Below are positions 26,462 to 49,744 of a DNA stretch of 64,000 nt, one piece after another. A program made the translations under genes and the position numbers. The stretch comes from Anaerobiospirillum thomasii (GTDB lineage Bacteria; Pseudomonadota; Gammaproteobacteria; Enterobacterales; Succinivibrionaceae), in assembly GCF_900445255.1 (NCBI RefSeq), contig NZ_UAPU01000007.1, positions 292,001 through 356,000 on the forward strand, written 5' to 3'. Under the pieces are notes generated by a model. The model saw only the letters and a program-made list of their open reading frames with translations. It was not told the origin of the DNA and did not search any database. How positions within the stretch are numbered: the first letter of the stretch is position 1; the number at the start of each line of letters is the position of its first letter.

Positions 26462-27018
26462 ATCCTGTGTCTGTACAATTTAGCTTCACAATTATAGCAA
26501 AAACAGACTTAATGATAAAACGTATCACCAAAATATAACAGCATTAAGGCCATATACGTAAGCTTTGTATCATGTTATGCATCAAAATAATGCATGCATC
26601 GGCCACCAGAAAACATGCTTGCTTTTTCTCCCAAGGCCATCTTACACACTGCCATGCCCGCAGCTGACAGTGCATTCTGTATTACAAAAGCACTATAGAC
26701 TTTAAGATCTATAAATTAAAAAAGTGCATGTACTTTGATAAATAGTGCAGTATCTGCATTTTATACAGATAAAGGAATGTGGTGATATTTAAGCGGCACA
26801 TACAAAAAAATCTTTTGCAATAAGTATGATTTTTATCTAATGCAGTCTACATAAAACCCATCTGACATCACACTTTGCCTTAATCATTTTTGAACAAAAT
26901 CAAGGAATATTCTGTTAAACCTTCTAATCTTGCACCATTTTAATGCATAGTTAGGTTATACCTATACATATATGTATAATTAGTCTGATTTTTATTTTTG
27001 CAGATAAAGAGTTTTACT
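26462..27018. other. 557-bp intergenic region between abgT-like gene and sstT
   Basis: Divergent promoter region with no plausible gene. A perfect TATAAT at 26975-26980 lies 38 bp before the sstT ATG, with only a weak -35 (TAGGTT, 17-bp spacer). Several short palindromes occur, including ATGCATGCAT near 26591. No riboswitch structure was recognised. Confidence 0.4.
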
Positions 27019-28284
27019 ATGTCAGAATCAAGAAATCCGCAGGCACTTTTAGCCAGCACCCTCAACAAGGTGCCGTTTATTATGCAGATCCTTGCAGGTC
27101 TTATCATCGGTGTCATCATAGGAGCCATCTATCCAAACGATCACACTGTTCTTCCAACTATGGGATCTTTATTTGTAAAGGCTCTCAAATCGGTTGCCCC
27201 TATTTTGGTTTTTGTGCTTGTAGCAGCAGCCATTGCCCGTCATGAAAAGGGCACACAGAGCAATATGCGCCCTATTGTGGTTGTCTATTTTATCTCCATG
27301 GTGCTGGCCTCTACCCTGGCCCTGTCCATGAGCTATATCTTCCCAAGCACCTTCTCAGAGCTTGCCAGTGCCGCTGATGACTTAAGTCCGCCACAGGGTA
27401 TTGCCGAGGTTTTAACCAACTTTGTAAATCAGGCAATTGACAATCCAGTCACCGCTCTTATGAACGGCAACTATATTGCCATTTTATTCTGGGCTATTGC
27501 TTTAGGTCTAATGTTCAGAACAGCTCATGACAATACCAAAAAGGTACTTGAGGATTTAACACAGAGCGTAGCTGGTGTGGTACGTATCATCATCCGCTTT
27601 GCCCCACTTGGTGTTATGGGTCTTGTCTACTCATCAGTGACACAGGAAGGCGGCTTTGCCAATCTTTTAAACTATGTACACGTACTTTTAGTACTCATAG
27701 GCTCCATGCTGCTCATTGGCTTTGTGCTAAATGCCGGCATTGTCTATTACATGACACGTGAAAATCCATATCCGCTTATTTTCACCTGCGTTGCAAGATC
27801 AGGCGTAACAGCCTTCTTTACCAGATCATCTGCAGCCAATCTGCCTGTAAATCTGGCCTTATGTGAAAAACTCAATCTGCCACGTGAAACCTATACCATC
27901 TCTATTCCATTAGGTGCCACCATCAATATGTCAGGTGCTGCTGTAACCATAGTTATCATGACCATGGCAGCTGTACACACCCTAGGTATTGAGGTTGACT
28001 TCTTCTCTGCTCTTTTAATGTCCATCTCAGCTGTACTGTGTGCCTGTGGTGCCTCAGGTGTAGCCGGCGGCTCATTAATGCTTATTCCTCTTGCCTGCTC
28101 CATCTTTGGTATTGGCAATGATGTAGCCATGCAGATTGTAGGTATTGGCTTTATTATCGGTGTGCTGCAGGACTCAACAGAAACTGCCCTCAACAGCTTT
28201 ACCGACGTGCTCTTTACAGCAGCAGTATGCAAGAGAGCACAGAGACTGCAGAAAAAGGCTGAGCAAAAAGCCGCAGCTCAATAA
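27019..28284 (+). CDS. sstT: Na+/serine-threonine symporter SstT
   Basis: 421 residues of the dicarboxylate/amino acid:cation symporter (DAACS) family. GLIIGVIIG follows the N-terminal amphipathic segment. The serine-rich re-entrant loop reads ARSGVTAFFTRSSAANLPVN, and the unwound helix motif is GATINMSGAAVTI. These point to SstT rather than GltP. It imports serine and threonine with sodium. The ATG at 27019 is preferred over an in-frame TTG seven codons earlier. It is closed by a terminator, just upstream of the secretion operon. Confidence 0.93.
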   Translation: MSESRNPQALLASTLNKVPFIMQILAGLIIGVIIGAIYPNDHTVLPTMGSLFVKALKSVAPILVFVLVAAAIARHEKGTQSNMRPIVVVYFISMVLASTLALSMSYIFPSTFSELASAADDLSPPQGIAEVLTNFVNQAIDNPVTALMNGNYIAILFWAIALGLMFRTAHDNTKKVLEDLTQSVAGVVRIIIRFAPLGVMGLVYSSVTQEGGFANLLNYVHVLLVLIGSMLLIGFVLNAGIVYYMTRENPYPLIFTCVARSGVTAFFTRSSAANLPVNLALCEKLNLPRETYTISIPLGATINMSGAAVTIVIMTMAAVHTLGIEVDFFSALLMSISAVLCACGASGVAGGSLMLIPLACSIFGIGNDVAMQIVGIGFIIGVLQDSTETALNSFTDVLFTAAVCKRAQRLQKKAEQKAAAQ

Positions 28285-28530: not shown

Positions 28531-29472
28531 ATGAGTGATATTAAAAATTTAGGTGAGAGTTTTTTAAAGTCGCGCCTTGGCGATGATCTGTGCTCAATTC
28601 TTGAAGATGAGAATATTGAGGAGATTATGCTAAATGCCGATGGCAGCGTATTTATAGAGGCGCGTGGCTGTGGCATGCACAAGGCTATGTCCTTAGATGC
28701 TCTGCGCTCTCAGAGCATTATAAGAACCATGGCCACATTCTTTAATACAGAGATAAATGCCCAAAATGCCATAGTCTCAGGCCATATGCCCTTTTACAAT
28801 GCCCGCTTTGAAGGTGTGCTTCCGCCTTTGGTAAAAGCTCCTTGCTTTAGCATAAGAAAGCATGGCTCACTGTCTTTATCCATTGAGATGTTAAAGGATA
28901 ATGGCATGTTGACTGACAGGCAGCTTGAGATTTTATGCAAGGCATTGAGTGACAGGCGCTCAGTTATTATCTGCGGCGAGACCAGCTCTGGCAAGACCAC
29001 ACTGGTCAATGCCATGCTCAATGAGCTTTTAACCATTGCCCCCTATGATCGTCTGCTACTTTTGGAGGATACTCCCGAGCTTACATTATCCTGTGACAAT
29101 CACATCTGTCTTTATGCCAATGATGCAAGCGATATGTCAGCACTGGTGCGTCAGGCCTTAAGGTTAAGACCTGACAGAATTATTGTAGGCGAGGTGCGCG
29201 GCGCTGAGGCCCTTGATCTGATTGATGCTCTGTCCACAGGTCACAGCGGCGGACTGTGCACACTGCATGCAGGCTCCATTGAGCAGGCTTTAATGCGCCT
29301 GGTACTTTTAATCTCGCGCCACAAAAGCGCCCCGCGTCTTATAGAGCCGTTTTTAACCCAGGCTCTTGATCTTATTGTCATTTTAAAAACCAGACCCGTA
29401 CGTCATATAGCAGATATTGCCTGTGTCACAGGCTATGACAACGGCCGTTTTATCTACCACAGCATAGTTTAA
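28531..29472 (+). CDS. trbB: TrbB/VirB11-type secretion ATPase
   Basis: 313 residues. An N-terminal domain (about 1-130) precedes a RecA-like ATPase with Walker A GETSSGKTT (about 149), Asp box LLLLEDTPEL, a Walker B-like RPDRIIVGEVRG and His box STGHSGGLCTLHAGS. This is the hexameric traffic ATPase at the cytoplasmic base of type IV secretion machines. A GAGG lies five bases before ATG 28531. It opens a ten-gene operon whose order (B11, B2, B3, B4, B8, B9, lipoprotein, B10, B5, B6) is that of the IncP Tra2/Trb region, hence the trb symbols. Confidence 0.92.
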   Translation: MSDIKNLGESFLKSRLGDDLCSILEDENIEEIMLNADGSVFIEARGCGMHKAMSLDALRSQSIIRTMATFFNTEINAQNAIVSGHMPFYNARFEGVLPPLVKAPCFSIRKHGSLSLSIEMLKDNGMLTDRQLEILCKALSDRRSVIICGETSSGKTTLVNAMLNELLTIAPYDRLLLLEDTPELTLSCDNHICLYANDASDMSALVRQALRLRPDRIIVGEVRGAEALDLIDALSTGHSGGLCTLHAGSIEQALMRLVLLISRHKSAPRLIEPFLTQALDLIVILKTRPVRHIADIACVTGYDNGRFIYHSIV

Positions 29473-29484
29473 GGAGAAATATAT

Positions 29485-29796
29485 ATGCTAAAGCTTTGTG
29501 CCCTTATAACCTTTATGTATGCCGCATTAAATACTGCCCTGGCCTCTCAGGCAAGCTCAGGACAGTCATATCTGCCCTATGAGTCATGGCTTATTACACT
29601 GCAAAAAAGCCTGACAGGCCCTGTAGCCTCATCTGTGGCTTTAATAGGCATTGTCTGCTCTGGCGCTACCTTAATTTTTGCCGGCGGCGAGATTACACGC
29701 TTTATGCGCTCTTTAATCTACATTGTACTGGTTATGACCTTTTTAATCGGCGCCAACTCCCTTTTAACCAACTTTTTCAACGGAGCTGTGATCTGA
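29485..29796 (+). CDS. trbC: TrbC/VirB2-type pilin
   Basis: 103 residues. A signal peptide ends at about ALA-S (residue 20), then YESWLITLQKSLTGPVASSVALIG, followed by a GATLIFAGGE stretch and a second hydrophobic helix. The SLTGPVA plus FGGE-like pattern is characteristic of TrbC/VirB2 pilins, which are processed to two-helix subunits of the conjugative pilus. RBS AAGGAG lies ahead of the ATG, 12 bases after the ATPase stop. The C-terminus is short, without the extended tail that is cyclised in RP4. Confidence 0.85.
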   Translation: MLKLCALITFMYAALNTALASQASSGQSYLPYESWLITLQKSLTGPVASSVALIGIVCSGATLIFAGGEITRFMRSLIYIVLVMTFLIGANSLLTNFFNGAVI

Positions 29797-29799
29797 TTT

Positions 29800-30093
29800 A
29801 TGATAAAGCGCCATAAAAGCGTACAGGCTTTGCTTGAGCATCAGAAGTTTTTAGGTACAGATCGTGAACTTACCATGTTTATGCTGCTTATTTTAATTGC
29901 CATAAATATGATTGCCCTTAGCATCTCTGTCACCTTAATAAGTCTTGTGCTCTTTGCACTGTGCTATGGACTTTTATACACCATGGCGCGCAATGATCTG
30001 CTCTTGCGCAAAGTGTATATAAGATCGCTGCGCTACAGCTCGCACTACAGAGCTCAGGGCCTTATGTTTGATAAAGGCGGTTTTAGAAAATGA
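29800..30093 (+). CDS. trbD: TrbD/VirB3-type inner-membrane protein
   Basis: 97 residues with an N-terminal HKSVQALLEHQKFLGTDREL segment, in which the LGTDRE-like stretch resembles the VirB3/TrbD family. A hydrophobic pair of helices (about 25-65) and a basic cytoplasmic tail follow. VirB3 proteins associate with VirB4 at the inner membrane. The ATG is three bases after the pilin stop, and its stop overlaps the start of trbE by 4 bp. Confidence 0.8.
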   Translation: MIKRHKSVQALLEHQKFLGTDRELTMFMLLILIAINMIALSISVTLISLVLFALCYGLLYTMARNDLLLRKVYIRSLRYSSHYRAQGLMFDKGGFRK

Positions 30094-32525
30094 GTGATAT
30101 TATTATCGCCCTGTCTTTAGCTGTTGCGCTTTTAACAGCAGTTGCCGCCTTGATTACAGTATACAGGGCACGCTATTTTAAAAAGGGCACTGATACAAGT
30201 CCTGCCTTTTGCGATCTTCTAGATTATGCCTTTATAGCAGATAACAACGTTATTGTGCTCAAAAACGGCGCTCTTTTGAGTATTTTTGCCATAGAGGCAG
30301 ATGATCTGAGCCATGCTGCAGATGACAGAGTCAATGAATGTGTCAGGCTTTTACAGAGCATGGTGCACAGACTTGATGGCTCTTTGTGTCTGCACTTTGA
30401 TCTGCTGCGCGACAAAGATACAGACTATAAGCCTTTGTTTAAAGGCAGCAATGACTTTGCCCGTATGCTAGATGCCAGGCGCCATGAAAAGCTCCTGTCC
30501 GATGGTGTCTTTAAAAACAGTTTTTACATAGGCATAAGCAAAAAAGGCCGGGGCTTTGATGGCAATGTGCTAAAGGGTAAAAAAGAGGTGTCGCTGCAAG
30601 GAGAGCTTGAATCTTTCAGAGCCACTTTATCCACCCTGACACGCACCCTTGAGCATTTTGCCAAAGTAAGAGCGCTTAGCCTTATTGAAAATGAGTCTTT
30701 TACAGGTCATGAGGCTGTAGATTTTATTTTCAAATGCATCTATGACAGGAATGTGCATCTTAGCTGCGCACAGTCTGACTTTCTTGATCTGACCTTATCC
30801 CCCTTTGATGTAAAGGTTGATGATCATATTGAAATTGAAGGTGAGAGAGTGGCTGTCATAGCCATTGAAGGTCTGCCCTATGAGAGCTTTTTTGCCATGG
30901 CCGACACTCTTGGCTCGCTGCCCTTTGCTCTGCGTCTTAACCTTAGGTATATGGCCTTTGACTCTGTCATATCCGCTCTGTATCTTGAAAAATACAGACG
31001 TATGTGGTCACAAAAGTCAAAAGGCTTTTTTGCCCAGCTTACCGATACACACAGCTACAGGGAAAACCGTCATGCCAGTGACAGTATAGAGGAGATTGAT
31101 GAGGCAAAAGCCCAGCTTGACAAGGGGCTCTCGTGCTTTGGCTCCATGTGTCTTAATCTTATTATAAGAGATACAGATGCCAAGCGCCTTGATGATAAAA
31201 AGATGCTTATCTTTAAAACCCTGGATGCCATAGGCTTTAAGGGCCGTGCTGAGAGCGTCAATGCCATGGAGGCCTTTTTAGGCTCACTGCCTGGGCATAT
31301 GTTTGAAAATCTAAGGCGCCCTATTATCTCATCCACTGTGCTTTGTGATCTTATACCGCTGTACACTGAGTATACAGGAGAGAGTGTATCGCCAAATACT
31401 CTGCCAGGTATGTTATCCCCTCTGTGTCAGGCCATAAGTGATAAAAAACAGGCCTTTTATTTAAATCTGCATGATAAGGATCTGGCCAATACCCTGGTCA
31501 TTGGCCCGCCTGGATCTGGCAAATCAGTGCTTTTGGGCCATCTTATCTTAAATCTGCTGCGCTATGAGGATATATCTGTTGTTATCTTTGAAAAAGGCTA
31601 TTCCTTTTATGCTCTGACCAGGGCCCTTGGCGGCAGCCATCTTGAGCTTAAGTCAAAAGATGCACAGCTGTGCCCTCTTTATCATTTAGACAGTACCGAG
31701 GATATGGCTCTGGCGCGCGATTATATTGAATATCTGCTGCGCCTTACAGGTATGGAGTTTTTAAAAGAGTACAGAGATGATATAGATACAGCTTTAAATC
31801 TTACAGCACAGCTGCCGCATTATGAGCGCACGCTTACAGCCTTTTGCTCCTATCTTAATAAAAGACAGCTGCTTGAGGCCATGCAGCCTTATCTGTCAGT
31901 AAGCGGTTTTGTCTCGCCTCTTGATGGCTGTGATGATCTGTGTCTTGACAATAAGGTCACAACTGTGGAGCTTGAGGGTCTGTTTGAAAGATCGGATATC
32001 TCAGCCGGTGCCATTTTACGCCATTTGTTCAATCTTGTTGAAAGAATGAGAGTCAAGGATAAAAAGCCCAAGGCCATTGTCATTGATGAGGCGTGGCTGG
32101 TGCTAAAAGATGAGCTTTTTGCAAAGCAGCTTGTCTCCTGGCTCAAGACTCTGCGCAAGGATAATATCTTTGTCATTCTTGCCACACAAAGTGTAGATGA
32201 TCTGATGTCAAGCTCCATCTCGCGCATCTTTTTAGACTGCATCAAGACACGCATCTATCTGCCAAATCCTGCTCTTGGTGAGAGCAGATACAGTATTAAA
32301 GCCTATGAGGATATGGGTCTTAATGACAATGACATTAAAACCATAGCCAGGGCTGTAAATAAAAAACACTATTATTTTGTCAAAAACTCAAACAAAGCCC
32401 TGATAGAGCTCAATCTTACAGACAGCGAGCTTAAGCTTCTGTCTGTAAGCGGGGCTGCGGCTGTGGATGAGGTTGACAGATGCTATGCAATTTTTGGAAA
32501 TGCCTTTTATGAACATCTTGCATGA
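30090..32525 (+). CDS. trbE: TrbE/VirB4-type secretion ATPase
   Basis: 811 residues, usual VirB4 length. An N-terminal membrane-associated CagE/TrbE domain (to about 420) precedes the ATPase domain. That domain has Walker A GPPGSGKS at about 471, Walker B AIVIDEAWLVL at about 662, and the following ILATQSVDDL. VirB4 is the largest ATPase of the machine, needed for pilus assembly and substrate transfer. ATGA overlap with trbD and a long overlap into trbF point to coupled translation. All catalytic motifs look intact, so the machine is probably still functional. Confidence 0.93.
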   Translation: MSDIIIALSLAVALLTAVAALITVYRARYFKKGTDTSPAFCDLLDYAFIADNNVIVLKNGALLSIFAIEADDLSHAADDRVNECVRLLQSMVHRLDGSLCLHFDLLRDKDTDYKPLFKGSNDFARMLDARRHEKLLSDGVFKNSFYIGISKKGRGFDGNVLKGKKEVSLQGELESFRATLSTLTRTLEHFAKVRALSLIENESFTGHEAVDFIFKCIYDRNVHLSCAQSDFLDLTLSPFDVKVDDHIEIEGERVAVIAIEGLPYESFFAMADTLGSLPFALRLNLRYMAFDSVISALYLEKYRRMWSQKSKGFFAQLTDTHSYRENRHASDSIEEIDEAKAQLDKGLSCFGSMCLNLIIRDTDAKRLDDKKMLIFKTLDAIGFKGRAESVNAMEAFLGSLPGHMFENLRRPIISSTVLCDLIPLYTEYTGESVSPNTLPGMLSPLCQAISDKKQAFYLNLHDKDLANTLVIGPPGSGKSVLLGHLILNLLRYEDISVVIFEKGYSFYALTRALGGSHLELKSKDAQLCPLYHLDSTEDMALARDYIEYLLRLTGMEFLKEYRDDIDTALNLTAQLPHYERTLTAFCSYLNKRQLLEAMQPYLSVSGFVSPLDGCDDLCLDNKVTTVELEGLFERSDISAGAILRHLFNLVERMRVKDKKPKAIVIDEAWLVLKDELFAKQLVSWLKTLRKDNIFVILATQSVDDLMSSSISRIFLDCIKTRIYLPNPALGESRYSIKAYEDMGLNDNDIKTIARAVNKKHYYFVKNSNKALIELNLTDSELKLLSVSGAAAVDEVDRCYAIFGNAFYEHLA

Positions 32526-33177
32526 ATATCAGGGACTTTTAGCTATAAATCAGGCGCATAAGACGCTAAAGCATCAGGTTTTTATAACTGTTATATGTCT
32601 TTTAAGTCTGTCACTTGCGCTTATTGCCTTTGCCACCTGCCTGTATATCTATACGCACAAAAGCATTGTGCCTTATGTTATAGGCGTTGACAGTCATGGA
32701 GTGGTACTTGCCAGTGACAGGCTGCAAAAGGCTGAAGCCATACCCAAGGCTGCCATTGTCACCGAGCTGTGCTCTTTTATAAAAAATGTGCGTCTTATCA
32801 GCAGCGATCAGGATGTGCAGAGTCAGTCTGTAATTAAAAGCTATGCCTATTTAAAGGATAAAAACATCATAAATGAGCTTAATGACTATTTTATAAAAAA
32901 CAATCCGCTGCAGCTGTCTGAAAGTCAGAGGCGATCTGTGGCTATAGTCAATGTGCTCTATGGCTCAAATGGCAGTGCGCAGATAGATTTTGTCGAGACT
33001 ACAACCTCACTTGACAGCGGGGCGGTTAAAGACAGAACCATGCGGGCGCTTTTAGTGTATGAAATAGATCTTGACAGCGTCATCTCCACAGAGGGCATGC
33101 TGTTAAATCCTTTAGGTATTTTTATTAAGGAGTACAGTGTAAGTGAAATTATTGCCACACCGCAGACAAGATATTAA
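32467..33177 (+). CDS. trbF: TrbF/VirB8-type assembly protein
   Basis: About 236 residues: a short cytoplasmic tail, one membrane helix (VFITVICLLSLSLALIAFAT), then an NTF2-like periplasmic domain ending LNPLGIFIKEYSVSEI. The NPLGI...Y..S pattern near the end is typical of VirB8/TrbF. It nucleates the inner-membrane complex. The start is uncertain. ATG 32467 puts the helix at residue 38, as I recall for RP4 TrbF. ATG 32485 and 32509 (GGAA nine bases upstream) are alternatives. All overlap the trbE end. Confidence 0.85.
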   Translation: MRLTDAMQFLEMPFMNILHEYQGLLAINQAHKTLKHQVFITVICLLSLSLALIAFATCLYIYTHKSIVPYVIGVDSHGVVLASDRLQKAEAIPKAAIVTELCSFIKNVRLISSDQDVQSQSVIKSYAYLKDKNIINELNDYFIKNNPLQLSESQRRSVAIVNVLYGSNGSAQIDFVETTTSLDSGAVKDRTMRALLVYEIDLDSVISTEGMLLNPLGIFIKEYSVSEIIATPQTRY

Positions 33178-34084
33178 ATATATTGTGCCAATTTTACTTG
33201 CAGTTAGCAGCGCACAGGTACATGCCGACAGCGCCTATGACAGCTATGCGCAAAACCCAAACGGCGGCAGTTTTTTAAATGACAGCGACTATGAGACTCT
33301 GCAGCAGCTAAAGGACAGAGACAGACGCGGTGTTGATGGCCTGGGCCTTAACGGCTCAGCCTCAAGACCAGGTCAGGTAGTCTTCAGCTACGGCTCAAGT
33401 CAGCCCTCTATTGTCTGTGCCATACTGCATCTGACCGATATTGCCTTTGAACCGGGCGAGGTTATAAATTCAGTGCAGATTGGTGATGCGGCAAGATGGT
33501 CTGTAGATTCAGCTATCTCAGGCTCGCCTCAGGGACAGGTCAGTCATCTTATTGTAAAGCCCCTTGATACTGATCTGTTTACCTCCATGATAGTGGCCAC
33601 AGACAGGCGTACCTACAATTTAAACTTAAAATCAACGCTAGATGATTTTATGCCATCTGTTGTCTTTATCTACCCGCAGCAGCAGTTAAGCTCGCTTAAC
33701 TTTAAAGCCCCGGCCCTATCGCGCATGCCATCTGGTGCCGATGCTGTATCGCGCCCTTTCCCTGCAGCCTCGGTTAAAAAAGTGGCCAGGCACAGGCGCA
33801 ACTACACCTTCGAGCTTGAGGGTGATGAGGAGATCATGCCGCTTGAGGTCTATCATGACAATGTACAGACCTTTATAGAAATGGACAGACGCACTTTACA
33901 AAAAGGCGCTCCGGCCCTGGTTTTAATACAGGAGGGCAGAATGTTTCAAAAAGACAGCTCCTCTGTTATCAATTATCGTCTTGTAGGCTCAACCTATGTA
34001 GTCGATGGAATTTTCAACAAAGCAAGATTGATGCTAAATGACTATGGCAGCAATCTTCAGGTAGACATTATCAACAAAGGATAG
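33143..34084 (+). CDS. trbG: TrbG/VirB9-type outer-membrane core protein
   Basis: 313 residues with a signal peptide ending SAQVHA-D. The N-terminal half holds GQVVFSYGSSQPSIVCA and a FEPGEVI stretch; the C-terminal half has RRNYTFELEGDEEIMP, PLEVYHDNVQTFIEM and NYRLVGSTYVVDGIF. These correspond to the two VirB9/TrbG beta domains. The protein forms the outer-membrane ring with VirB10 and the lipoprotein. Start is GTG 33143 with AGGAG ten bases upstream, overlapping the end of trbF. Some VirB9-family residues are diverged, but the overall pattern is clear. Confidence 0.88.
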   Translation: MKLLPHRRQDIKYIVPILLAVSSAQVHADSAYDSYAQNPNGGSFLNDSDYETLQQLKDRDRRGVDGLGLNGSASRPGQVVFSYGSSQPSIVCAILHLTDIAFEPGEVINSVQIGDAARWSVDSAISGSPQGQVSHLIVKPLDTDLFTSMIVATDRRTYNLNLKSTLDDFMPSVVFIYPQQQLSSLNFKAPALSRMPSGADAVSRPFPAASVKKVARHRRNYTFELEGDEEIMPLEVYHDNVQTFIEMDRRTLQKGAPALVLIQEGRMFQKDSSSVINYRLVGSTYVVDGIFNKARLMLNDYGSNLQVDIINKG

Positions 34085-34087
34085 AAA

Positions 34088-34588
34088 ATGCTTAAATATT
34101 TAAAGACTCTGGCGCTTGTAGGCCTTAACAGCGCTCTTTTATGCTCTTGCTCAGTTCTTGATAACAGCAAGGAGACTGCAGAAACAGCCGCAGCGCTGCA
34201 CAATGCTAACTTTATGCTCTTTGATGGAACACAGGGCTATTGTTTAAGCTTTGATTATGATCTTATTTTAAAAGATGCGGCCACATTTATCCGCACTACA
34301 GACAATCTTGGCTCACTTGACTATGTCATTGATGATACAGACAGCAAAGGCTTTATCTACCGAGCCCTGCTGCAAAAATACAATGTAAGAGTAAGTCCCT
34401 ATGAGAGTGATGACAGCAGCAGCGCCTTTATCACCTTTAAGGAGAATGACAGCAAAACCGAGCTTTTTATGCTCATTGAAACCCCATATGGCAGTATAAA
34501 CCGACTCTATGGCAAGAATGCCCATCAGACCTTTGCCCTCTCTGCCTTTAATTTTGATGCCACAGGTCATGACGGGGAAATGGCATGA
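34088..34588 (+). CDS. trbH: TrbH-like lipoprotein (VirB7-position)
   Basis: 166 residues beginning with a lipoprotein signal: two Lys, hydrophobic run, then ALLCSC, making Cys22 the probable lipidated residue. The mature part is Asp and Ser rich with no recognised domain. Its place between VirB9 and VirB10 genes is that of trbH in IncP plasmids, where the lipoprotein anchors the core complex to the outer membrane. Sequence similarity to RP4 TrbH is not obvious by eye, so the name rests on position and the lipobox. It overlaps trbI by 4 bp. Confidence 0.65.
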   Translation: MLKYLKTLALVGLNSALLCSCSVLDNSKETAETAAALHNANFMLFDGTQGYCLSFDYDLILKDAATFIRTTDNLGSLDYVIDDTDSKGFIYRALLQKYNVRVSPYESDDSSSAFITFKENDSKTELFMLIETPYGSINRLYGKNAHQTFALSAFNFDATGHDGEMA

Positions 34589-36000
34589 GTTTAATGCTGT
34601 ATGATAAAAAGCGCATCAGGCTGATTATTGCCATTATCATCATGCTTTTTGTGCTGCTCTCTGTCTATGCCATTTTTATTGTGCACACAAGATCTTTGAC
34701 TAAAGAGCCTCAAAAGACATCAGATGTTCAAAAAAGCAGCATGAATATGGCCAATCCCCTGCTTGAGACCTTAAAAAGAAACTCTGGTGTCAGCTCTTAT
34801 TATCTAAAGGATGATGAAAAAAAAGATAAGGATGCCCTTGAGAGCTTTGAGCAAAAGCTTTTAGGCTCTGATTTATTTTTACAAAACAGCTCTTTGAGTG
34901 CAGATCCTAATGAAACTTTAGAGTCACACAAGCTGCAAAGCAATGTGCTTTTAGATGAGCTTGATACAAACTACAAAGAAAATCTGTCACAGCTTAATGA
35001 CTCTCTGTCACAAAATAAGATTGATACTGACATAAATACCTATGTCTATGACAGTGGGGTAGAGGATCAAAGCCTGCGCAGGAGTATGTCACAGGATACG
35101 CAGTCTTTGTATGATAAGCGCATCAGTGCCTTTAATGATGCAGTTAAAAGCTCCTCGCGTCTTAATATAGGACAGAGTGGTGGACTTGCTGCTGTCAATG
35201 ACAGGGCCTGTGCTGTCTATCCTGTAAATGCTGCAAATACAGCTGTATCTGCAGGATCTCTTTCAGGCGGCGCTGTACATCAGAGTACTTATCCATCATC
35301 AGGCCCTATCCTGTCTGAGGATAAAAACAAGGCCATAAGTACTCTTGATGGCTATAAGGTACTTGAGCATAATAACTATACCCTTAAACACAAGGTGCAG
35401 ACTGTAAGCACCCCTTATCTTTTAAGACAGGGAGCAGTACTGCCTGCCATCTTGCTTACTGGTATAAACTCCTCATTGCCAGGACAGGTAAGTGCGCAGA
35501 TAACACGCAATGTCTATGATACGCCTACAGGACGCTATCTTTTAATTCCGCGCGGCTCCAAGCTTATAGGACAGTACAATGCCTCACCTGCCATGGGAGC
35601 TGAGAGGGTGATGTTAGGCTTCAACCGCCTTGTCTTTCCAGATGGCAGAGCCCTTGATTTAGGTGCCATGCCTGTCTCTGGCAATGATGGAATGGCAGGA
35701 CTTGAGGCTGATGTTAATACCCATCTTATGCGCCTTTTAACCTACTCAGCCCTGCTTGGCACCATAAGTGCCTCTGTAAGCATAGCAGGAGGACGTGAGT
35801 ATGATGACAACGGACGTGTGACAGGCTCCTCTGCCCTGTATGAGGCTTTAACTCAGAGCCTGGGTGCTGCCTTGTCTGAAAGTATAAGACAGAATATGGC
35901 CATTGCCCCAACCCTTGAGGTAGGCAGCGGCTATCCATTCAACCTGACACTTACTAGTGATATTTATTTTGATAACAGCTACAAGGATTATAACTACTGA
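34585..36000 (+). CDS. trbI: TrbI/VirB10-type core complex protein
   Basis: 471 residues: a short cytoplasmic tail, a membrane helix at about 12-33, then a low-complexity, Ser/Asn/Lys-rich linker (about 35-250) where VirB10 proteins usually have a Pro-rich one. A C-terminal beta-barrel domain follows. That domain contains LRQGAVLPAILLTGINSSLPG, RNVYDTPTGRYLLIPRGSKL, LGFNRLVFPDGRALDLG and a membrane-antenna region. VirB10 spans both membranes and senses ATPase activity. The linker shows little Pro, which is unusual. ATGA overlap with trbH; one-base overlap with trbJ. Confidence 0.9.
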   Translation: MSLMLYDKKRIRLIIAIIIMLFVLLSVYAIFIVHTRSLTKEPQKTSDVQKSSMNMANPLLETLKRNSGVSSYYLKDDEKKDKDALESFEQKLLGSDLFLQNSSLSADPNETLESHKLQSNVLLDELDTNYKENLSQLNDSLSQNKIDTDINTYVYDSGVEDQSLRRSMSQDTQSLYDKRISAFNDAVKSSSRLNIGQSGGLAAVNDRACAVYPVNAANTAVSAGSLSGGAVHQSTYPSSGPILSEDKNKAISTLDGYKVLEHNNYTLKHKVQTVSTPYLLRQGAVLPAILLTGINSSLPGQVSAQITRNVYDTPTGRYLLIPRGSKLIGQYNASPAMGAERVMLGFNRLVFPDGRALDLGAMPVSGNDGMAGLEADVNTHLMRLLTYSALLGTISASVSIAGGREYDDNGRVTGSSALYEALTQSLGAALSESIRQNMAIAPTLEVGSGYPFNLTLTSDIYFDNSYKDYNY

Positions 36001-36761
36001 TGCTATACCGTTTTTTAAGCCTGTGGGCTTTTTGTGTATTTGTCTTTATGGGGCAGCTGCCTTTTAACACAGCTTACAGCAAGGGCAATAATGATGCCCA
36101 GGTTATGGAATTTAAAGCAGCCACCTTTGCGCAGTGGGCTCATGATAACAGCAATCAGATAGCCAAACTCAATGAACAGTTAAAGACCAATGAGCTTTTA
36201 AGAAGCGATATGGTCATGAGCCATAAGCAAAGCTGGGAGCGTGTATCAAAGCTTAACAGCGATTCAATTAAAATTCTGACCGCCTCGCATGCACTTGCCG
36301 ATGAGATGGAAAAAGGCAGTGCTTATCTTGTATCTAAAAGCCGCAGTAAAGTCATTGCAAGCTGTCTTAAAGACAGCAAATGCATGCTGCAGGAGAAGCT
36401 AAGATCATTTGACGAGGTGGCCTCAATGCGCTCTGAGCGTGCCATACATCAGGCGCGTATGGTCAAACAGTCTTTAAAACAGCAGATCCATGAGCTCTCA
36501 CAGCTTAGCTTTGAAGGTCGCGATGCCACCAGCCGCTCTGATGCTCTTGATACCATGGCTAAAATCAATGCCCAGGCCGGATCTTCCTTAATTGCCCTAA
36601 ATGATCAGTTTGCCTCTGTGGTTGAATTTTTAAGCCTTGACACAGCTACCAGGGTGCAGGATAAAAATATTAAAAAGGCCATGTCATCAAGGCTCTATGC
36701 CAGACTCTCAGGTCTTGAGCCTGATTTTGATTTAAGCCTTAAATCAAGGATGGGCAGATAA
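36000..36761 (+). CDS. trbJ: TrbJ/VirB5-type pilus-tip protein
   Basis: 253 residues with a signal peptide (ending about NTAYS) and an all-helical mature part rich in Gln, Lys and Ser: EFKAATFAQWAHDNSNQIAKL and MAKINAQAGSSLIALNDQFAS. This resembles the P-type transfer protein TrbJ, the VirB5 counterpart that caps the pilus. The Cys pair at about 122-128 (SCLKDSKC) could form a disulfide. The start codon shares one base with the trbI stop. The identification leans on position, helical character and the QIxxLxxQL pattern. Confidence 0.75.
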   Translation: MLYRFLSLWAFCVFVFMGQLPFNTAYSKGNNDAQVMEFKAATFAQWAHDNSNQIAKLNEQLKTNELLRSDMVMSHKQSWERVSKLNSDSIKILTASHALADEMEKGSAYLVSKSRSKVIASCLKDSKCMLQEKLRSFDEVASMRSERAIHQARMVKQSLKQQIHELSQLSFEGRDATSRSDALDTMAKINAQAGSSLIALNDQFASVVEFLSLDTATRVQDKNIKKAMSSRLYARLSGLEPDFDLSLKSRMGR

Positions 36762-37694
36762 GTGAAGCTTTATCTTTATACAGCACTTGCAGCGCTGCTT
36801 TTAGCGCTGCCATCTGTCAATGCCCAGCCCATAGACAGTATGCATGTGCAGCAGAGCATAGATATTATTTTAAAGCACACAGCCTCAATACGCACTGATA
36901 TTACAGCCTTTGCCATGAAGACCTTTTATTATCTGTGCGGTATATCCTTTGTGCTTACAGGAATAAAGCTTATCTTCAAAGACAGCGATCTTAGAGCCTT
37001 TTTTCATATACTTGTAAAGTACATGCTTATCATAGGCTTTTTTAAATATATTATTGAAAACGGTCCTGAGATTGGAGCTGCCATTATTGACTCGCTAAGT
37101 GCCATAGGCGCCTCGCGCACCTCACATGCCTCGCCCTATACCATGCTTGAGATGTGTCTTAATGCCTACTCCTCGCTCTCAAATATTGATTTTGATATCT
37201 ACAATATTGCCGATGTCTTTGTCATCAAGACCACAGCTATAGCCTTTTTAATCTTAAACTTTCTTATTGTGGTGCGCTATATAGTAAGCTATGTCAGCGC
37301 CTATATGCTCTGCGTGCTAGGTATTGCCTGCCTGGGCACTGCAGCTCTGTCAGCTACACGCGATATTGCCATCAACTATATAAAATCCATCTTTGCCTCA
37401 GGCCTTGAGCTCTTTACCATAGCTTTTTTATGTACAGTGCACAAGGATATTATCAAAGACACAATATCCCTGCTCAAAGAGGATGGAGCTCTTGATAATA
37501 TAAGATCGCATATGTTTTTAATCTTTTTATCACTTTTGATGTACGCTCTGTCAAAGACCCTGCCCTCTATGCTCTCATCTTTAGTCTTTATGACAGGACA
37601 GTCTCAGAGTATGCCGGGGGCCGCCTCGGCCCGCTTTGGTATTAACTTTGGCTCAAACTTTATTACAAGGGCACTGACTCTTGTTAGAAAATAG
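36762..37694 (+). CDS. trbL: TrbL/VirB6-type polytopic channel protein
   Basis: 310 residues. After a signal-like N-terminus (ALPSVNAQ) come five or more membrane helices, with the central periplasmic loop of TrbL/VirB6 proteins. The helix IFASGLELFTIAFLCTVHKD and a Gly/Ser/Met-rich C-terminus (GQSQSMPGAASARFG) are consistent with the family. VirB6 helps form the inner-membrane passage. Start is GTG 36762, directly after the trbJ stop. It is shorter than RP4 TrbL, which I recall as over 500 residues. It ends the operon; a strong terminator follows at 37779. Confidence 0.82.
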   Translation: MKLYLYTALAALLLALPSVNAQPIDSMHVQQSIDIILKHTASIRTDITAFAMKTFYYLCGISFVLTGIKLIFKDSDLRAFFHILVKYMLIIGFFKYIIENGPEIGAAIIDSLSAIGASRTSHASPYTMLEMCLNAYSSLSNIDFDIYNIADVFVIKTTAIAFLILNFLIVVRYIVSYVSAYMLCVLGIACLGTAALSATRDIAINYIKSIFASGLELFTIAFLCTVHKDIIKDTISLLKEDGALDNIRSHMFLIFLSLLMYALSKTLPSMLSSLVFMTGQSQSMPGAASARFGINFGSNFITRALTLVRK

Positions 37695-37829: not shown

Positions 37830-38600
37830 TTACCATTTCTTTTTATCGCCAAAGAGCTGATCAAGCTCTGAGACTTCTTCTTTTTCTGTCTCAATCTTCT
37901 TTTGAACAGTCTTCTCGCCCTTATCCTTAACCTCGCGTTCAATATCGGCTGCAATCTGTGACAGGATAGAGCTCTTCTCCATCAGCCACTCATCCTTGAT
38001 GCCTGATTTTCTTATAACATCAAGACCTTTTTCAATAAGCTGACGGCATGAACCTACCTGATGCAGACGCTTGAGCTCAAGCACAGTCTGAATCAGATTG
38101 GAAATATTAACCTTGATAACCAAAAGTGACAGGCGCTTATCCTCTTTCTGACATAAGACAGGATCAACAGGGGTGCCTGATCTGATTTCTGTATAGATAA
38201 GTTTGCGCAGACGGCGGATAGCACGCAGCTGACCTACTGCCACCACATCATTTTCAGGAGTTCTAAAGGCAATATCCTCGCGGAAGTTGGCGTTGACATC
38301 GCGTATCATCTGCTCCTGCTCAGTGATCTTCTCATTGATATGTTTTGCATGAGGATCCTCCTGCAGCTTGCGCAGTGCATTTAAAATTCTATAGCGCAGG
38401 ATCAGAACCAGAGTTTTTGAATATGGCAGCTGAGCCTGATTCATTAACAGCTCGTCTGCATCAGATATGACATTTCTTGCCCGGTTGAACATCATACGCT
38501 GATCTGCTTCCTTTCGGGACAGATAATCAGAGTACATGTTGTACATAATCAGCAAGAATGTTGCCAGAACGATAAAAATTACTGCAATAGTTATAAACAT
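37830..38600 (-). CDS. hypothetical single-span membrane protein with long helical cytoplasmic part
   Basis: 256 residues. One N-terminal membrane helix (ITIAVIFIVLATFLLIMY, about 3-20) is followed by a long, charged, probably coiled-coil domain with several heptad-like stretches (about 25-110 and 160-215) and a Lys/Glu-rich tail ending DQLFGDKKKW. I do not recognise the family. It resembles conserved gammaproteobacterial proteins of unknown function by architecture only. It converges on the Trb operon and shares its terminator, but there is no sign that it belongs to that system. It is the only gene between the operon and the fumarase gene. Confidence 0.7.
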   Translation of the reverse strand: MFITIAVIFIVLATFLLIMYNMYSDYLSRKEADQRMMFNRARNVISDADELLMNQAQLPYSKTLVLILRYRILNALRKLQEDPHAKHINEKITEQEQMIRDVNANFREDIAFRTPENDVVAVGQLRAIRRLRKLIYTEIRSGTPVDPVLCQKEDKRLSLLVIKVNISNLIQTVLELKRLHQVGSCRQLIEKGLDVIRKSGIKDEWLMEKSSILSQIAADIEREVKDKGEKTVQKKIETEKEEVSELDQLFGDKKKW

Positions 38601-39011
38601 ATCAAACTCTATACTAGGTACATATCCTTAATTGACGGTAGGATATTTAAAAACTTTAGCTCTATTTTAAACCAGCTCAAATTATCGACCTAATTTAAAA
38701 AATTGTCACCTTATGCCATTTTACAGGCACAATTTTCAAGCAGAGAGCATGTGACAGCTAAAAACTTGGCGGCGACATTCTGACATTTTTACATATAAAA
38801 AATGCTGTTTTTTTAGTATTTTAAAAGATTGTTCTTTATATAACAATATATTCAATACACTCCAAGAAAATTTTAGCGGATCTGCCCCATTGTTATGCTC
38901 TAAATTATGTGTCCTGTGGCATAAATTGATTTTTTAGCTTTTTTTTAGACATCAGACGATCTACAATCAAACTAATAATTGTTATCAATTCATTTATTTA
39001 GGAATTTGCCC
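38601..39011. other. 411-bp intergenic region upstream of fumarase
   Basis: Divergent promoter region without a gene. It holds a TTGTT/AACAA inverted repeat at 38829-38846 and an ATTGTTATCAAT stretch near 38975. These might be sites for redox or iron regulators, but I cannot match either convincingly to FNR, ArcA or Fur consensus. Confidence 0.35.
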
Positions 39012-40538
39012 ATGACCACATTAATCAAGACTAAAGACTTTATAGATTCTATTTATGAGGCTTTGCAGTTCATTTCCTACTATCATCCAAAAGATTTCCT
39101 CGATGCCATGAAAAAAGCCTATGACATTGAGCAGAACCCATCTGCAAAGGCCGCCATTGCCCAGATTTTAAAGAATTCAAAAATGTGTGCCATAGGTCAT
39201 CGTCCATTATGTCAGGATACAGGCGCTGTAACCTGCTTTGTCAAGATTGGTATGGATGTACGCTTTGAAGGCGACATGACTGTACAGGAAATGGTGGATG
39301 AGGGCACAAGACGCGCCTACTGCGATGAGCACAATCCACTGCGCAAATCAGTTTTAACCGATCCTGTAGGCAAGAGAGTCAACACCAAGGACAATGCCCC
39401 TGCTGTTGTGCATATTGAAATGATCAAGGGCGACAAGGTTGAAGTTGCCATTGCAGCCAAGGGCGGTGGCTCTGAGAACAAGACCCACTTAAAGATGTTA
39501 AATCCATCAGATTCAATTGTTGACTGGATTTTACATGAAATCCCTGCCATGGGTGCAGGCTGGTGCCCACCTGGCATCTTAGGTGTAGGCGTTGGTGGTA
39601 CTCCTGAAAAATCTGCAATTTTAGCCAAAGAGGCTTTAAATGATCCTATTGATATTCAGGATCTTATTGCTCGCGGCCCTAGCAATGCCGATGAAGAGCT
39701 GCGTTTAGAGCTTTATGAGAAGATTAACAAATTAGGTATTGGCGCTCAGGGTTTAGGCGGTCTGACCACTGTGCTTGATGTCAAGGTCAAGAGCTATCCT
39801 TGCCATGCCGTATCCAAGGCCACAACCATTATTCCAAACTGCGCCGCCACCCGTCACATCGACTTTGAGCTTGACGGTTCAGGCCCTGCCACCTTCACTC
39901 CTCCATCACTTGATGACTATCCAGAGATTGAGCTTAGTGGCTCTGACAATGTTAAGAAGGTAAATCTTGATACTCTGACCAAAGAAGAGATTGCCACCTG
40001 GAAGATGGGTGATACCCTGCTTTTAAGCGGCACCATTCTAACCGGCCGTGACGCTGCCCACAAGAGAATCTGCGATATGATTGCCAAGGGTGAGAAACTG
40101 CCTGATGGCGTTGATTTCAAGGGCAAGCTTATCTACTACGTAGGCCCTGTTCCTGCTGTAGGTGATGAGGTTGTAGGCCCTGCAGGTCCAACCACCTCAA
40201 CCCGTATGGATAAATTTGTTGAGACTATGCTTGCACAGACTGGCCTGTTTGGCATGATCGGCAAGTCAGAGCGCGGCCCTGCTGCTGTTGAGTCTATCAA
40301 GAAGCACGGTGCTGCCTATCTCATGGCTGTAGGCGGAGCTGCCTATCTTGTGTCAAAAGCCATCAAGAGCGCCAAGGTTATAGCCTTTGAGGATCTTGGC
40401 ATGGAGGCCATTCACGAGTTTAAGGTTGTCGATATGCCAGTTACTGTTGCAGTTGACGCTCAGGGCAACAATATCCACGCCGTAGGTCCTAAGGAGTGGA
40501 GCAAGAAGATTGAGGAAATCGGCTTTAAATACGTCTAA
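39012..40538 (+). CDS. class I (4Fe-4S) fumarate hydratase
   Basis: 508 residues, a FumA/FumB-type fused enzyme. The N-terminal alpha part contains RPLCQDTGAV, whose Cys is one cluster ligand, and AKGGGSENKTHLKML. The C-terminal beta part contains LLSGTILTGRDAAHKRI, YYVGPVP and GPAGPTTSTRMD. It interconverts fumarate and malate; in a succinate-producing anaerobe it would feed fumarate reductase. ATG 39012 is chosen, with AGGAA seven bases upstream; an in-frame TTG at 38979 lacks one. Codon use is strongly biased, suggesting high expression. Confidence 0.95.
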   Translation: MTTLIKTKDFIDSIYEALQFISYYHPKDFLDAMKKAYDIEQNPSAKAAIAQILKNSKMCAIGHRPLCQDTGAVTCFVKIGMDVRFEGDMTVQEMVDEGTRRAYCDEHNPLRKSVLTDPVGKRVNTKDNAPAVVHIEMIKGDKVEVAIAAKGGGSENKTHLKMLNPSDSIVDWILHEIPAMGAGWCPPGILGVGVGGTPEKSAILAKEALNDPIDIQDLIARGPSNADEELRLELYEKINKLGIGAQGLGGLTTVLDVKVKSYPCHAVSKATTIIPNCAATRHIDFELDGSGPATFTPPSLDDYPEIELSGSDNVKKVNLDTLTKEEIATWKMGDTLLLSGTILTGRDAAHKRICDMIAKGEKLPDGVDFKGKLIYYVGPVPAVGDEVVGPAGPTTSTRMDKFVETMLAQTGLFGMIGKSERGPAAVESIKKHGAAYLMAVGGAAYLVSKAIKSAKVIAFEDLGMEAIHEFKVVDMPVTVAVDAQGNNIHAVGPKEWSKKIEEIGFKYV

Positions 40539-46927: not shown

Positions 46928-47011
46928 CGCCAAATTATATTTTTTTATCTACAACGCACCCCACATACCCTAAATATGATATAATAAGAACATAAAACGG
47001 CGGGGGTGCTT

Positions 47012-49066
47012 ATGTATCTGACTAAAAGAACTAAAAATGGTGGGGTCTATCTGTATCTGGTAGAGAATTATAAAGATCCAGATTCAGGCAAACGTAAGGT
47101 CAGAACCATAAAAAGTTTCGGTAAACTTGAAAGTATCGACAGTGAGACTCTTTCAAAACTTGAAGCTCAATATGCACAGCCTGCACAAAAGAGCAGAGAG
47201 GAGCAAAAGAACCACATCAATAGATCGTTGACATCTATTACAGATATTGCCAACTCATTCGAGCAAAGCAATTTCAATAAAGCTAATCTGCTGCACTATT
47301 CAAATCTCATCATAAGACCAATATGGAAGCAGCTTAATCTTGACTACAAACTTAACTATCTACAAAAGCAATTTACTAAAATAACTTCCTACAAACTTTC
47401 TGACATCCTGTTCTATCTGGTGTGCAGAAAAATTACCAGTCCGTCATCCTACATTAACTCATTTACTGAGCAGAGCACTGTTTTAAATAATCCTATTGAA
47501 GGCATCTGTCAGGACAATATCTACGCAGCATTGGATTATTTCAATAAATTCTACAGAGAGCTTTTGCCATACGCAGTAAAGAAATCATATGCACAAAAAG
47601 ACTATGAACCATGTAACAAAGATGGCGGTCCAAATATGATATTTTTCGACTGCACCAACTGCTACTTTGAAACTCCATATGACGATAGAGAGCAATTTAC
47701 ACACACGTTTATTAAGCAGAAAAAAGATGAGCTTATTGACAGTGGAGCAAGTGTTGAACAGATTGAGAAGTACCTTGACAGTGAAGAGTTTTTAGGAGAG
47801 CTGGATACTGCTATTAAAGATCATGAAGAAGAATTTATAAGAATGCGCGGCCCATCAAAAGAGGCACGTTTCAGTCAACCCCTTGTCTCAGTTTCTCTGG
47901 TAATAGATGAGCGAGGTGTTCCTATTGATTTTGCTGTATTTCCTGGCAATCACTCTGAATTTAAACAGGTTGCTCCTACTATTGAGAGACTCAAAGAGCA
48001 GTATAACGTACAGAACTGTTATTTTGTTGCAGACAGAGGCATTAACTCTACCTCCAATCTTGAGGAGATATTAAAGAAATCATTGGGGTTTATTGTTGCT
48101 CAGAAGATTACTGGACAGTCGAAAAAAGATACTGAGCAAATGTTGGATCCTAACGGCTGGAAGAGTTTTGATTTGACATCTGACAGCAAGATCAATTTTA
48201 TTAAAGACGATATCGACAGAGGCTTTAAATATAAGGTTTGTAAAAAGGAAAAAAGCGCAAGGGTAGTGCTTGAAAATGGAACTGTTAAAACCATAAAGGT
48301 TAATTGCAATATTGTTTATACATTCTCTCCAAAACGTAGGGAAAAAGAGCTGCATGATATTGAAGAGGCAAAAATCAAGGCCCAACAAGCCATTGATGAA
48401 GGCAGACTTATGGGGAACCCGTCCGGCTCTGGCTGGCGCTGTCTGGTGAAAACACAAAAAGAAGTAACACAAAATAAAAAAGACAAGCAGCTTTATAAAG
48501 CCGTAGCTCTGAATCAGGATGTAATCGAAAACCGAATCAGGCTTGCAGGATATAGCGCGATTATTTATGAAGATCCAAAAAGTGTTAAAGAGAAAGGAGC
48601 TGAAATAAGTGATTGTGTAGTGCTTGGCGCCTATCACTCCTTAGTGCGTATTGAGGAATGTTTTAGAATAATGAAAAATAGCTTTGAGCTCAGACCTGTT
48701 TATGTCAAGCGTTATGAAAGAACTGTTGCTCATGTATTTATCTGTGTGTTATCACTGATGATTTTAAGACTGATGCAGATAAGACTCAGTGAGTATGGGG
48801 TACATATAACGATCAATCAGATCACATCAAATCTCAACAAGGCTATGGTTATGCCTTTGTGTCTTAGTAAAGAAGATACGCTTTACATAAATTGCTTTGA
48901 AAATGCTGATATCTATACTCCTAAGTCTACAAGGCTATCAGCTCAGGATAATGACGTACTTGATGTAAAATCAGCCATTGACAATTACAATAACCAAAGG
49001 AAAAAAGAAGCCGATATTATAGATACCATTATAAAAGCTATGGGTCTTGTGGAAAATCCGGTCTAA
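47012..49066 (+). CDS. IS1634-family transposase
   Basis: 684 residues. An N-terminal domain opens YLTKRTKNGGVYLYLVENY and continues with KRKVRTIKSFGKLE, the beta-rich head of IS1634-type transposases. The RNase H-like catalytic domain shows FFDCTN (about 209), VADRGINS (about 337) and RIEECFRIMK (about 545), a probable DDE triad. The frame is intact and full length, so the element may be active. ATG 47012 is chosen, with GGGGG seven bases upstream. Codon use is more AT-rich than that of the neighbouring hemH and asnB. Confidence 0.85.
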   Translation: MYLTKRTKNGGVYLYLVENYKDPDSGKRKVRTIKSFGKLESIDSETLSKLEAQYAQPAQKSREEQKNHINRSLTSITDIANSFEQSNFNKANLLHYSNLIIRPIWKQLNLDYKLNYLQKQFTKITSYKLSDILFYLVCRKITSPSSYINSFTEQSTVLNNPIEGICQDNIYAALDYFNKFYRELLPYAVKKSYAQKDYEPCNKDGGPNMIFFDCTNCYFETPYDDREQFTHTFIKQKKDELIDSGASVEQIEKYLDSEEFLGELDTAIKDHEEEFIRMRGPSKEARFSQPLVSVSLVIDERGVPIDFAVFPGNHSEFKQVAPTIERLKEQYNVQNCYFVADRGINSTSNLEEILKKSLGFIVAQKITGQSKKDTEQMLDPNGWKSFDLTSDSKINFIKDDIDRGFKYKVCKKEKSARVVLENGTVKTIKVNCNIVYTFSPKRREKELHDIEEAKIKAQQAIDEGRLMGNPSGSGWRCLVKTQKEVTQNKKDKQLYKAVALNQDVIENRIRLAGYSAIIYEDPKSVKEKGAEISDCVVLGAYHSLVRIEECFRIMKNSFELRPVYVKRYERTVAHVFICVLSLMILRLMQIRLSEYGVHITINQITSNLNKAMVMPLCLSKEDTLYINCFENADIYTPKSTRLSAQDNDVLDVKSAIDNYNNQRKKEADIIDTIIKAMGLVENPV

Positions 49067-49495
49067 AATCTCATCTGATCCGGTAGTGCCTCAGTATTAG
49101 ATCTTGAAAACGGACGACACCAATTCCTATTAAATCTCATCTGATCTTGAGCTAAAATTTGTCCTAAACTCTAGCAGTAGTTCCTGCCTACTTTTGTTCA
49201 ATACTGTTTTTATACATCTGATCCTGACCTAAATCAGTATTTCCGCTCTTCTTACACATGATCTTTTGTCTATTAAATCCTTCTGGTAATCATGCCATCT
49301 TTAAAGGCATCGTCAGATCCTGAGGGTTATCAGAAGTTCCTATTGCACCAAAACAGTACTTCCGTTACATCATCTATTGATCTTGTATAGCACGTCAGAT
49401 CTTTAGGCAGTTACTCTGTAAACTGACGCCATAAATATAGCTTTTATATAGGCTTATTAGAGATAAAACCCTGACACTAGGCCAGGGTTTTTGTG
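49067..49495. other. 429-bp noncoding region with repeated GATC-containing motifs
   Basis: No gene. Seven copies of a GATCYTGA-like motif begin at about 49100, 49143, 49220, 49260, 49316, 49379 and 49398. Interspersed are AGTAnTTCC-like words, and AAATCTCATCTGATC occurs twice (49066-49080 and 49133-49147). This is likely the repeat-rich terminus (transposase-binding array) of the IS21-like module that lies to its right on the minus strand. Confidence 0.5.
49466..49492. terminator. terminator after the IS21-like module
   Basis: AAACCCTG/CAGGGTTT stem with a nine-base loop; T-run on the plus strand, weaker TTTTA on the minus strand. It follows the last minus-strand gene of the module. Confidence 0.75.
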
Positions 49496-49744
49496 TTATA
49501 AAATGATATCGATTTTAACAACTCTGCCAAGATGAAGTTGCGGCCTCATTGGTTTACCTCCTAGAAACCATTCATGGCTGTTTAAATTAAAATCGACCAT
49601 ATGGGAGATCCATTTTGATTTGCCATGTCTATCCTTTTTTTTCAGATAGATGGTATCTCCTATATTTATTTCATAGTCATCAATATAAAGACAGTTACTG
49701 TCATTATTAAATGCAAGACGGCCTAATATTTTTAACTTATACAC
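49496..49744 (-). CDS. small DUF5348-like protein, third gene of IS21-like module
   Basis: 82 residues. The pattern GRLAFNN...YEINIGDTIYL...WISHMVDF...EWFLGG...LGRVVKI matches the small beta-barrel-like DUF5348 type: GRL, GD-I-Y-L, W, EWYLGG. Its function is unknown. It starts 9 bp after istB, and a clearly related 80-residue protein occupies the same place in the second module at 61295. It therefore belongs to the element, not to the host. A role in nucleic-acid binding or in regulating transposition is a guess. Confidence 0.65.
   Translation of the reverse strand: MYKLKILGRLAFNNDSNCLYIDDYEINIGDTIYLKKKDRHGKSKWISHMVDFNLNSHEWFLGGKPMRPQLHLGRVVKIDIIL

Follow-up and report, generated by a model that had tools for sequence, protein, structure and literature searches.

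What is a complete set of conjugation-type channel genes doing in a bacterial chromosome with neither a relaxase nor a coupling protein beside it, and what would such a channel transport? The question is raised by an operon of ten trb genes in Anaerobiospirillum thomasii, which lies within the stretch of 64,000 nucleotides analysed here (the window; C7:292001-356000 of a genome of 3.0 Mb in 10 contigs). A coupling-type TraD and a relaxase-like TraI are encoded together at one distant locus of the same contig, and we give an even chance to the reading that the two unlinked loci would form one chromosomally fixed (domesticated) type IV secretion system (T4SS), split in two, whose usual substrate would be DNA. 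Computed directly were the content of the operon, the single clade formed by its TrbE and its relatives, the purifying selection seen in relatives, the presence of TraD and TraI, and the change from an F-type to a Trb channel with TraD and TraI kept.

As shown in Table 1, the region 28531-37694 of the window holds ten open reading frames (ORFs) on the same strand, with exact start and end coordinates from the ORF call. Their order, trbB-C-D-E-F-G-H-I-J-L, is that of a Trb mating-pair formation set (MPF_T), with J assigned via relatives and H by position, and corresponds to the IncP order. Eight of the products (TrbB, C, D, E, F, G, I and L) scored above the Pfam cut-offs, and their top NCBIfam matches were mostly Trb models, with the curated cut-off passed by TrbG and TrbL only; TrbB reached 301.5 bits against TIGR02782 (TrbB_P), slightly below the cut-off of 304.55. 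The TrbJ of the window alone matched no Pfam or NCBIfam family, only two weak and unrelated names turning up, and its assignment comes from aligned members, 9/13 of which matched TIGR02780 (TrbJ). TrbH, without a match in Pfam or NCBIfam, was named solely from its position and an N-terminal, lipobox-like LLCSC; in relatives a gene is present at the same position, highly divergent in sequence. The Walker A motifs are intact in both TrbE (GPPGSGKS, residue 472) and TrbB (GETSSGKT, residue 149), and the Walker A and DEAW residues of TrbE do not vary across 18 aligned homologues. From trbB to trbL the intergenic distances are, in order, +12, +3, -4, -59, -35, +3, -4, -1 and 0 bp, and the last of these means that trbK cannot fit between trbJ and trbL. 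An earlier note, made from the letters of the window, had described ten trb genes in IncP order with intact ATPase motifs and overlapping starts, and the ORFs, family matches, Walker A motifs and spacings all bear this out.

The same note had reported that the window lacks a relaxase and a VirD4-type protein, which holds for the families searched, and had suggested searching the whole genome, where a MobH-like TraI and an SXT-type TraD were indeed found. The genome has one TrbE by PF03135 and no match to the PF03432 relaxase family, the relaxase families searched being PF03432 and PF07514. It has a single PF02534 match and a single PF07514 match, both outside the window and at one locus, about 237 kb from trb on the same contig, which encodes TraD, a small membrane protein and TraI between genes that are presumably pfkA and secG, as we named them from their sequences. 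The PF02534 match is a partial one of 22 bits within TraD, and no full-length TraG-type protein is found in the genome. TraD passed the cut-off of SXT_TraD (TIGR03743; 370.6 bits against 366). TraI scored 50.7 bits against Pfam TraI_2 (PF07514), above the cut-off of 23.9, and 60.9 bits against NCBIfam MobH, below the curated cut-off of 200. The 190-aa protein resembles DUF4400/Yaa in position, size and rough predicted transmembrane pattern and hydropathy; it matched no family, and its sequence similarity to DUF4400/Yaa was not significant. F-type TraC (PF11130) and TraU (PF06834) are absent from the genome. In the complete genome of a relative (G065), trb lies near 563-573 kb and TraD-TraI at 2223-2230 kb, about 1.65 Mb apart, so the two loci are unlinked there too. 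Within a few kb of TraD-TraI, G065 (L292) has two genes for CesT-type secretion chaperones, and G066 (L296) has look-alike genes at the same position, together with a gene in that region showing a weak, below-cut-off match to a type III secretion system needle protein.

We followed these genes through 56 genomes of the family (labelled G with a number; genera g1-g14), of which 41 are T genomes, from the Trb genera g1, g2, g3, g4, g8, g12, g13 and g14, and 15 are F genomes, from g5, g6, g7, g9, g10 and g11. A profile built from 18 TrbE rows gave some match in 55/56 genomes. Since TrbE scores alone cannot separate this type from ordinary Trb, the TrbE proteins of all 41 T genomes were put in a tree, in which they formed a single clade (42 rows, FastTree SH-like 100; TrbE is in two pieces in G079, and incomplete in G079 and, at a contig edge, in G067). 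In a separate TrbE tree the T clade, there of 20 rows, had an SH-aLRT of 100 and a long stem. A different Trb, outside the T clade, occurs in five F genomes (G007, G009, G020, G021 and G025), and the idea that these conjugative elements of the F genera belong to the T clade was rejected on the trees. We also rejected a scattered, divergent Trb operon in g5, g9 and g11, where the genes examined were F-type (TraC_F_IV, TraU, TraN and TraG_N). The separate Trb systems of the F genera (L053, L055, L056, L057 and others) look more ordinary; in four of the five genomes, G025 being the exception, they are accompanied by full-length PF02534 coupling proteins and PF03432 relaxases, which in G007 and G009 lie on the same contig. 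One T genome, G068, has a second TrbE (L319, G068:C5:18300-21400), which of all rows outside the T clade comes closest to it, as its sister (support 98); the domesticated operon may have come from a similar source.

F-type TraC was detected in 14/15 F genomes (not in G005) and in 5/41 T genomes (G004, G008, G066, G069 and G078). G004, G066 and G078 carry an extra TraI_2 on the contig that holds TraC, G008 carries one on a different contig, and none was found in G069; G004 also has a second TraD about 12 kb from TraC. We take the TraC of these five T genomes to belong to additional F-type elements, with less confidence for G008 and G069. TraD is present in 34/35 sampled genomes of the family (missing in G029) and in 2/24 genomes from the order's other families, and 33 of the 34 TraD-bearing genomes have either a TrbE of the T clade or an F-type TraC. 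TraI_2 was matched at E <= 0.001 in 29/41 T and 14/15 F genomes. The 12 T genomes without a match include 6/10 genomes of g2, and such misses may reflect divergence. In g2 (L065, L072, L147, L167, L039-L042, L049) several T4SS proteins carry large insertions, TraD being about 1,280-2,090 aa and TrbE about 900-1,200 aa long. Among the matches listed in literature searches, no title concerned type IV secretion in Succinivibrionaceae, and none of the passages of PMC8103633 consulted describes a T4SS in Succinivibrio.

The history of the channel was read from a quick species tree of FtsH, GlmM and RrmJ, built without bootstrap from 41 rows (33 of the family and 8 outgroup, leaving out G024 and G028, which have a split FtsH). 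The 18 T rows were monophyletic (SH-aLRT 100) and joined to g6, g7, g9 and g11 (99), with g5 and g10 outside this group, so that the F genera are paraphyletic; the branches of g5 and g10 are long, and their placement may be a long-branch artefact. Because the Trb genera are nested as one clade among the F genera, the channel was probably swapped once, and the F-type channel looks ancestral, with Trb as its replacement. The TraC tree of the F genera (12 rows, G007 and G029 left out) broadly matches the species tree, the differences being that g10 groups with g6, g9 and g11 and that two accessory TraC are placed apart. In the TraD tree the T sequences form one clade (100, 19 rows), and a single family ancestor for all TraD of the family is plausible.

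The channel that the Trb operon encodes has been conserved and passed on by vertical descent. The GC content at third codon positions (GC3) of trbE ranges from 0.13 to 0.94 over 18 T genomes and tracks that of ftsH with r = 0.97. The gene sstT adjoins trb in G008 (where trbB was not found between sstT and trbC), G068 and G077 and is less than 4 kb away in G071; in G001 trb has fumA close by, separated by the same intervening gene as in the window, and in G003 fumA is immediately 5' of trbB. In three g4 genomes the neighbours are instead LpxK and a cytidylyltransferase gene. The synteny sstT-trb-fumarase, which the earlier note proposed to compare in relatives, is shared on one flank or the other in some; since neighbours vary among the other T genomes, the place of trb is only partly conserved. 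Purifying selection acts on the Trb genes in g8 relatives: among G064, G065, G066 and G078 (pairs above 45% identity, many with a synonymous rate, dS, above 1 and one saturated) the ratio of nonsynonymous to synonymous rates (dN/dS) was 0.05-0.35 for nine Trb genes, TrbH being left out; TraD gave 0.08-0.16, the small protein 0.13-0.30 and TraI 0.10-0.17. That the machine is retained for some purpose, as had been suggested, looks right. The proteins change fast: the two g1 genomes, that of A. thomasii and the other one of its genus, share 32% identity in TrbE versus 91% in FtsH.

We propose that the Trb operon would supply the envelope-spanning channel and pilus, and that TraD, as coupling ATPase, would choose and feed the substrate together with the small inner-membrane protein and the MobH-like, HD-domain TraI. 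We infer that TraD and TraI act through the Trb channel because the channel was swapped while they were kept. The weakest step is the substrate, which would usually be DNA, released or passed to kin in the manner of the gonococcal genetic island (GGI). As judged from the sequences, DNA export is the most likely function, with protein export close behind.

Cleavage by the gonococcal TraI is reported (PMC12857230) to need both the 3H and the HD motifs. The TraI of A. thomasii has the HD motif LHDFTK, and HD..K is present in all 18 readable TraI rows of the Trb clade (16 by pattern and two by reading), five further rows without the 3H stretch having been dropped from the 3H count. Rows of F genera (12/12) and plasmids (2/2) have an intact HH in this stretch. 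The catalytic tyrosine of gonococcal TraI is Y93, with the HD histidine at H161, and in pRA1 a Tyr stands 68 residues N-terminal of HD, the same spacing; among the 12 F-genus rows it is found in G017, G025 and G034 only. In g8, TraI homologues occur in tandem (L292:5787-9531, L298:4177-7921, L296:6079-9639 and L308:6957-10560), the first copy lacking the PAS/3H and HD motifs yet being under purifying selection.

Several observations weigh against a split DNA exporter or lend it no support. In the 3H stretch, all 18 readable Trb-clade rows (17 genomes) have another pair in place of HH (HD in 17 and HN in one), and the presumed catalytic Tyr is Phe in the TraI of A. thomasii and absent from the remaining readable Trb-clade rows; these changes count against a standard relaxase. 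The pairing of MOBH with MPF_T is unexpected, as MPF_T goes with MOBP in the section of PMC3158045 consulted. In a mirror-tree comparison TraD followed the Trb subunits with a partial r of 0.10-0.38, no better than the FolP control (0.48), the TraD-TraI value being 0.71. G005 has TraD and TraI_2 and no TrbE or TraC match; the long-branched TraD of G045, from another family, falls beside the T clade in the TraD tree, and the accessory TraD of G004 falls among the family rows, so that common descent of all family TraD is no more than plausible. Further, the swap from F-type to Trb happened only once, which leaves its coincidence with the keeping of TraD and TraI without a replicate.

The altered 3H motif makes protein export the close rival. 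The same split machine could export proteins to neighbouring bacteria or host cells, with TraI as a non-nicking adaptor, a possibility we consider serious and still rather unlikely. The missing Tyr fits it as well, the fast change of TrbE would suit conflict with other cells, and T4SSs that have no relaxase beside them often serve to export proteins, as stated in part of PMC3158045. However, the analysis brought up no effector and no immunity gene, a systematic search for such genes not having been made, and the HD motif kept in every readable row together with the purifying selection on TraI means that an enzyme role probably persists. It is less probable again that Trb and TraD/TraI have nothing to do with each other, both being domesticated leftovers; Trb would then need no coupling protein, like Bordetella Ptl and Helicobacter ComB, and TraD/TraI would have another role. 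The lack of linkage, mirror-tree values no better than the control's and G005 fit this reading; however, TraD and TraI were kept across the family through one change of channel type, and all but one of the TraD-bearing genomes sampled have a channel ATPase of either type. Finally, we rejected as highly improbable that the operon belongs to an integrative conjugative element (ICE) that has decayed or fallen silent. A conjugation gene set with its mobility genes unlinked does recall one, and the earlier note was right that a DNA-processing half might lie elsewhere; decay itself does not stand, given an intact operon, intact frames and TrbE in 41/41 T genomes, dN/dS values in g8 relatives as given above, a GC3 that tracks the host and partly shared neighbours without an att-like pair. 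Of the signs of a recognisable element that the note had named, att repeats, patchy presence and a relaxase at the same place were absent, and the 20 flanking genes scanned for an integrase included no tyrosine or serine recombinase.

Compared with known systems, the proposed split machine of Trb and TraD/TraI falls among the known kinds of T4SS, as a variant, and is no new kind. It is like the Trb system of IncP (RP4), an MPF_T, in its set and order of genes trbB-J plus L and in its ATPase motifs; unlike RP4 it has no trbK between J and L, its locus is fixed in the chromosome, and its genome lacks a full-length PF02534 protein and a PF03432 (MOBP) relaxase. In the GGI, MOBH TraI, TraD and the small membrane protein Yaa go together, according to a passage of PMC4207684, and the targeting module here is alike, with the inner-membrane protein recognised by position and transmembrane pattern. 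However, the GGI has an F-type channel in a single island, whereas here the channel is Trb-type and unlinked and TraI has an altered 3H motif; DNA secretion, as by the GGI, is for this machine a prediction. The SXT/IncA-type plasmid pRA1, typed MOBH and MPF_F with mobH adjoining traD, shares this adjacency and a TraD above the SXT_TraD cut-off; unlike it, the genome of A. thomasii lacks F-type TraC and TraU, and no plasmid or ICE context was seen. Under the scheme outlined in part of PMC3158045 (Guglielmini 2011), a VirB4 cluster that lacks a relaxase within 60 ORFs would count as a MOBless T4SS, whereas here a relaxase-like TraI and TraD lie elsewhere on the chromosome; co-location rules for T4SSs 'without relaxase' can thus overlook distant partners. 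The archaeal Ced and Ted systems are likewise chromosomal and off mobile elements, in the portion of PMC9905601 seen, but they are made of other parts in another domain of life, and Ced imports DNA. We hold only as a tentative idea, probably wrong in some part, that the family has a domesticated machine passing chromosomal DNA between cells, in which one clade swapped the entire F-type channel for Trb with TraD and TraI kept, a bacterial counterpart of Ced. If the proposal is true, it would offer a natural experiment in which the TraD/TraI half outlived the exchange of an entire secretion channel, with a bearing on how coupling proteins recognise channels, and a vertically inherited, conjugation-derived machine across a bacterial family.

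Table 1. Genes of the trb operon, its neighbours and the distant, putative partner locus (window positions, or contig positions where marked C7).
Feature	Position	Strand	Basis
trbB (VirB11-type ATPase), 313 aa	28531..29472	+	PF00437 111 bits; Walker A GETSSGKT
trbC (VirB2-type pilin), 103 aa	29485..29796	+	PF04956 50.4 bits
trbD (VirB3-like), 97 aa	29800..30093	+	PF05101 28.3 bits
trbE (VirB4 ATPase), 811 aa	30090..32525	+	PF03135, PF19044
trbF (VirB8), 236 aa	32467..33177	+	PF04335 95.4 bits
trbG (VirB9), 313 aa	33143..34084	+	PF03524 144 bits; TIGR02775 TrbG_Ti 181.5 bits > 180.85 cut-off
trbH-position gene, putative lipoprotein (VirB7-like), 166 aa	34088..34588	+	position; lipobox-like LLCSC
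trbI (VirB10), 471 aa	34585..36000	+	PF03743 165.7 bits
trbJ (VirB5-like), 253 aa	36000..36761	+	via relatives: TIGR02780 TrbJ
trbL (VirB6), 310 aa	36762..37694	+	PF04610 56.6 bits; TIGR02783 TrbL_P 141 bits > 128.85 cut-off
TraD (679 aa), membrane protein (190 aa), TraI (687 aa)	C7:78319-82976		profile matches, position
sstT-like dicarboxylate symporter	26998..28284	+	PF00375; neighbour common to some relatives
class I fumarase (fumA)	38979..40538	+	PF05681/PF05683; neighbour common to some relatives

The surroundings of the operon agree with the earlier description in most respects. Its base composition resembles that of its neighbours, with a GC content of 44.1% versus 41.9% for the window and a codon usage correlated with that of ten neighbouring genes at r = 0.89. 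No att-like repeat pair flanks it, direct repeats nearby being weak, and no tyrosine or serine recombinase was found among the 20 flanking genes scanned, which are part of the genes of the window. Of the terminators placed after sstT and trbL, both hairpins can be read directly, T-tailed 3' of sstT and with runs of A and T 3' of trbL, but a terminator scan lists the first only as a minus-strand reading and the second not at all. Between trbL and fumA, on the minus strand, lies a gene for a 256-aa protein (37830-38600) with no family match, whose homologues stand near fumA/trb in G001 and G003 (66% and 60%). The far part of the window (47006-63291) is rich in transposases, with two DDE_Tnp_1 genes, an IstA/IstB-like pair, an IS66-like gene and one rve-domain gene; transposases of the rve type are at 50509-52269 and 53613-54587, and the pair at 49754-52269 recurs at C7:117576-120091 with 99.9% identity.

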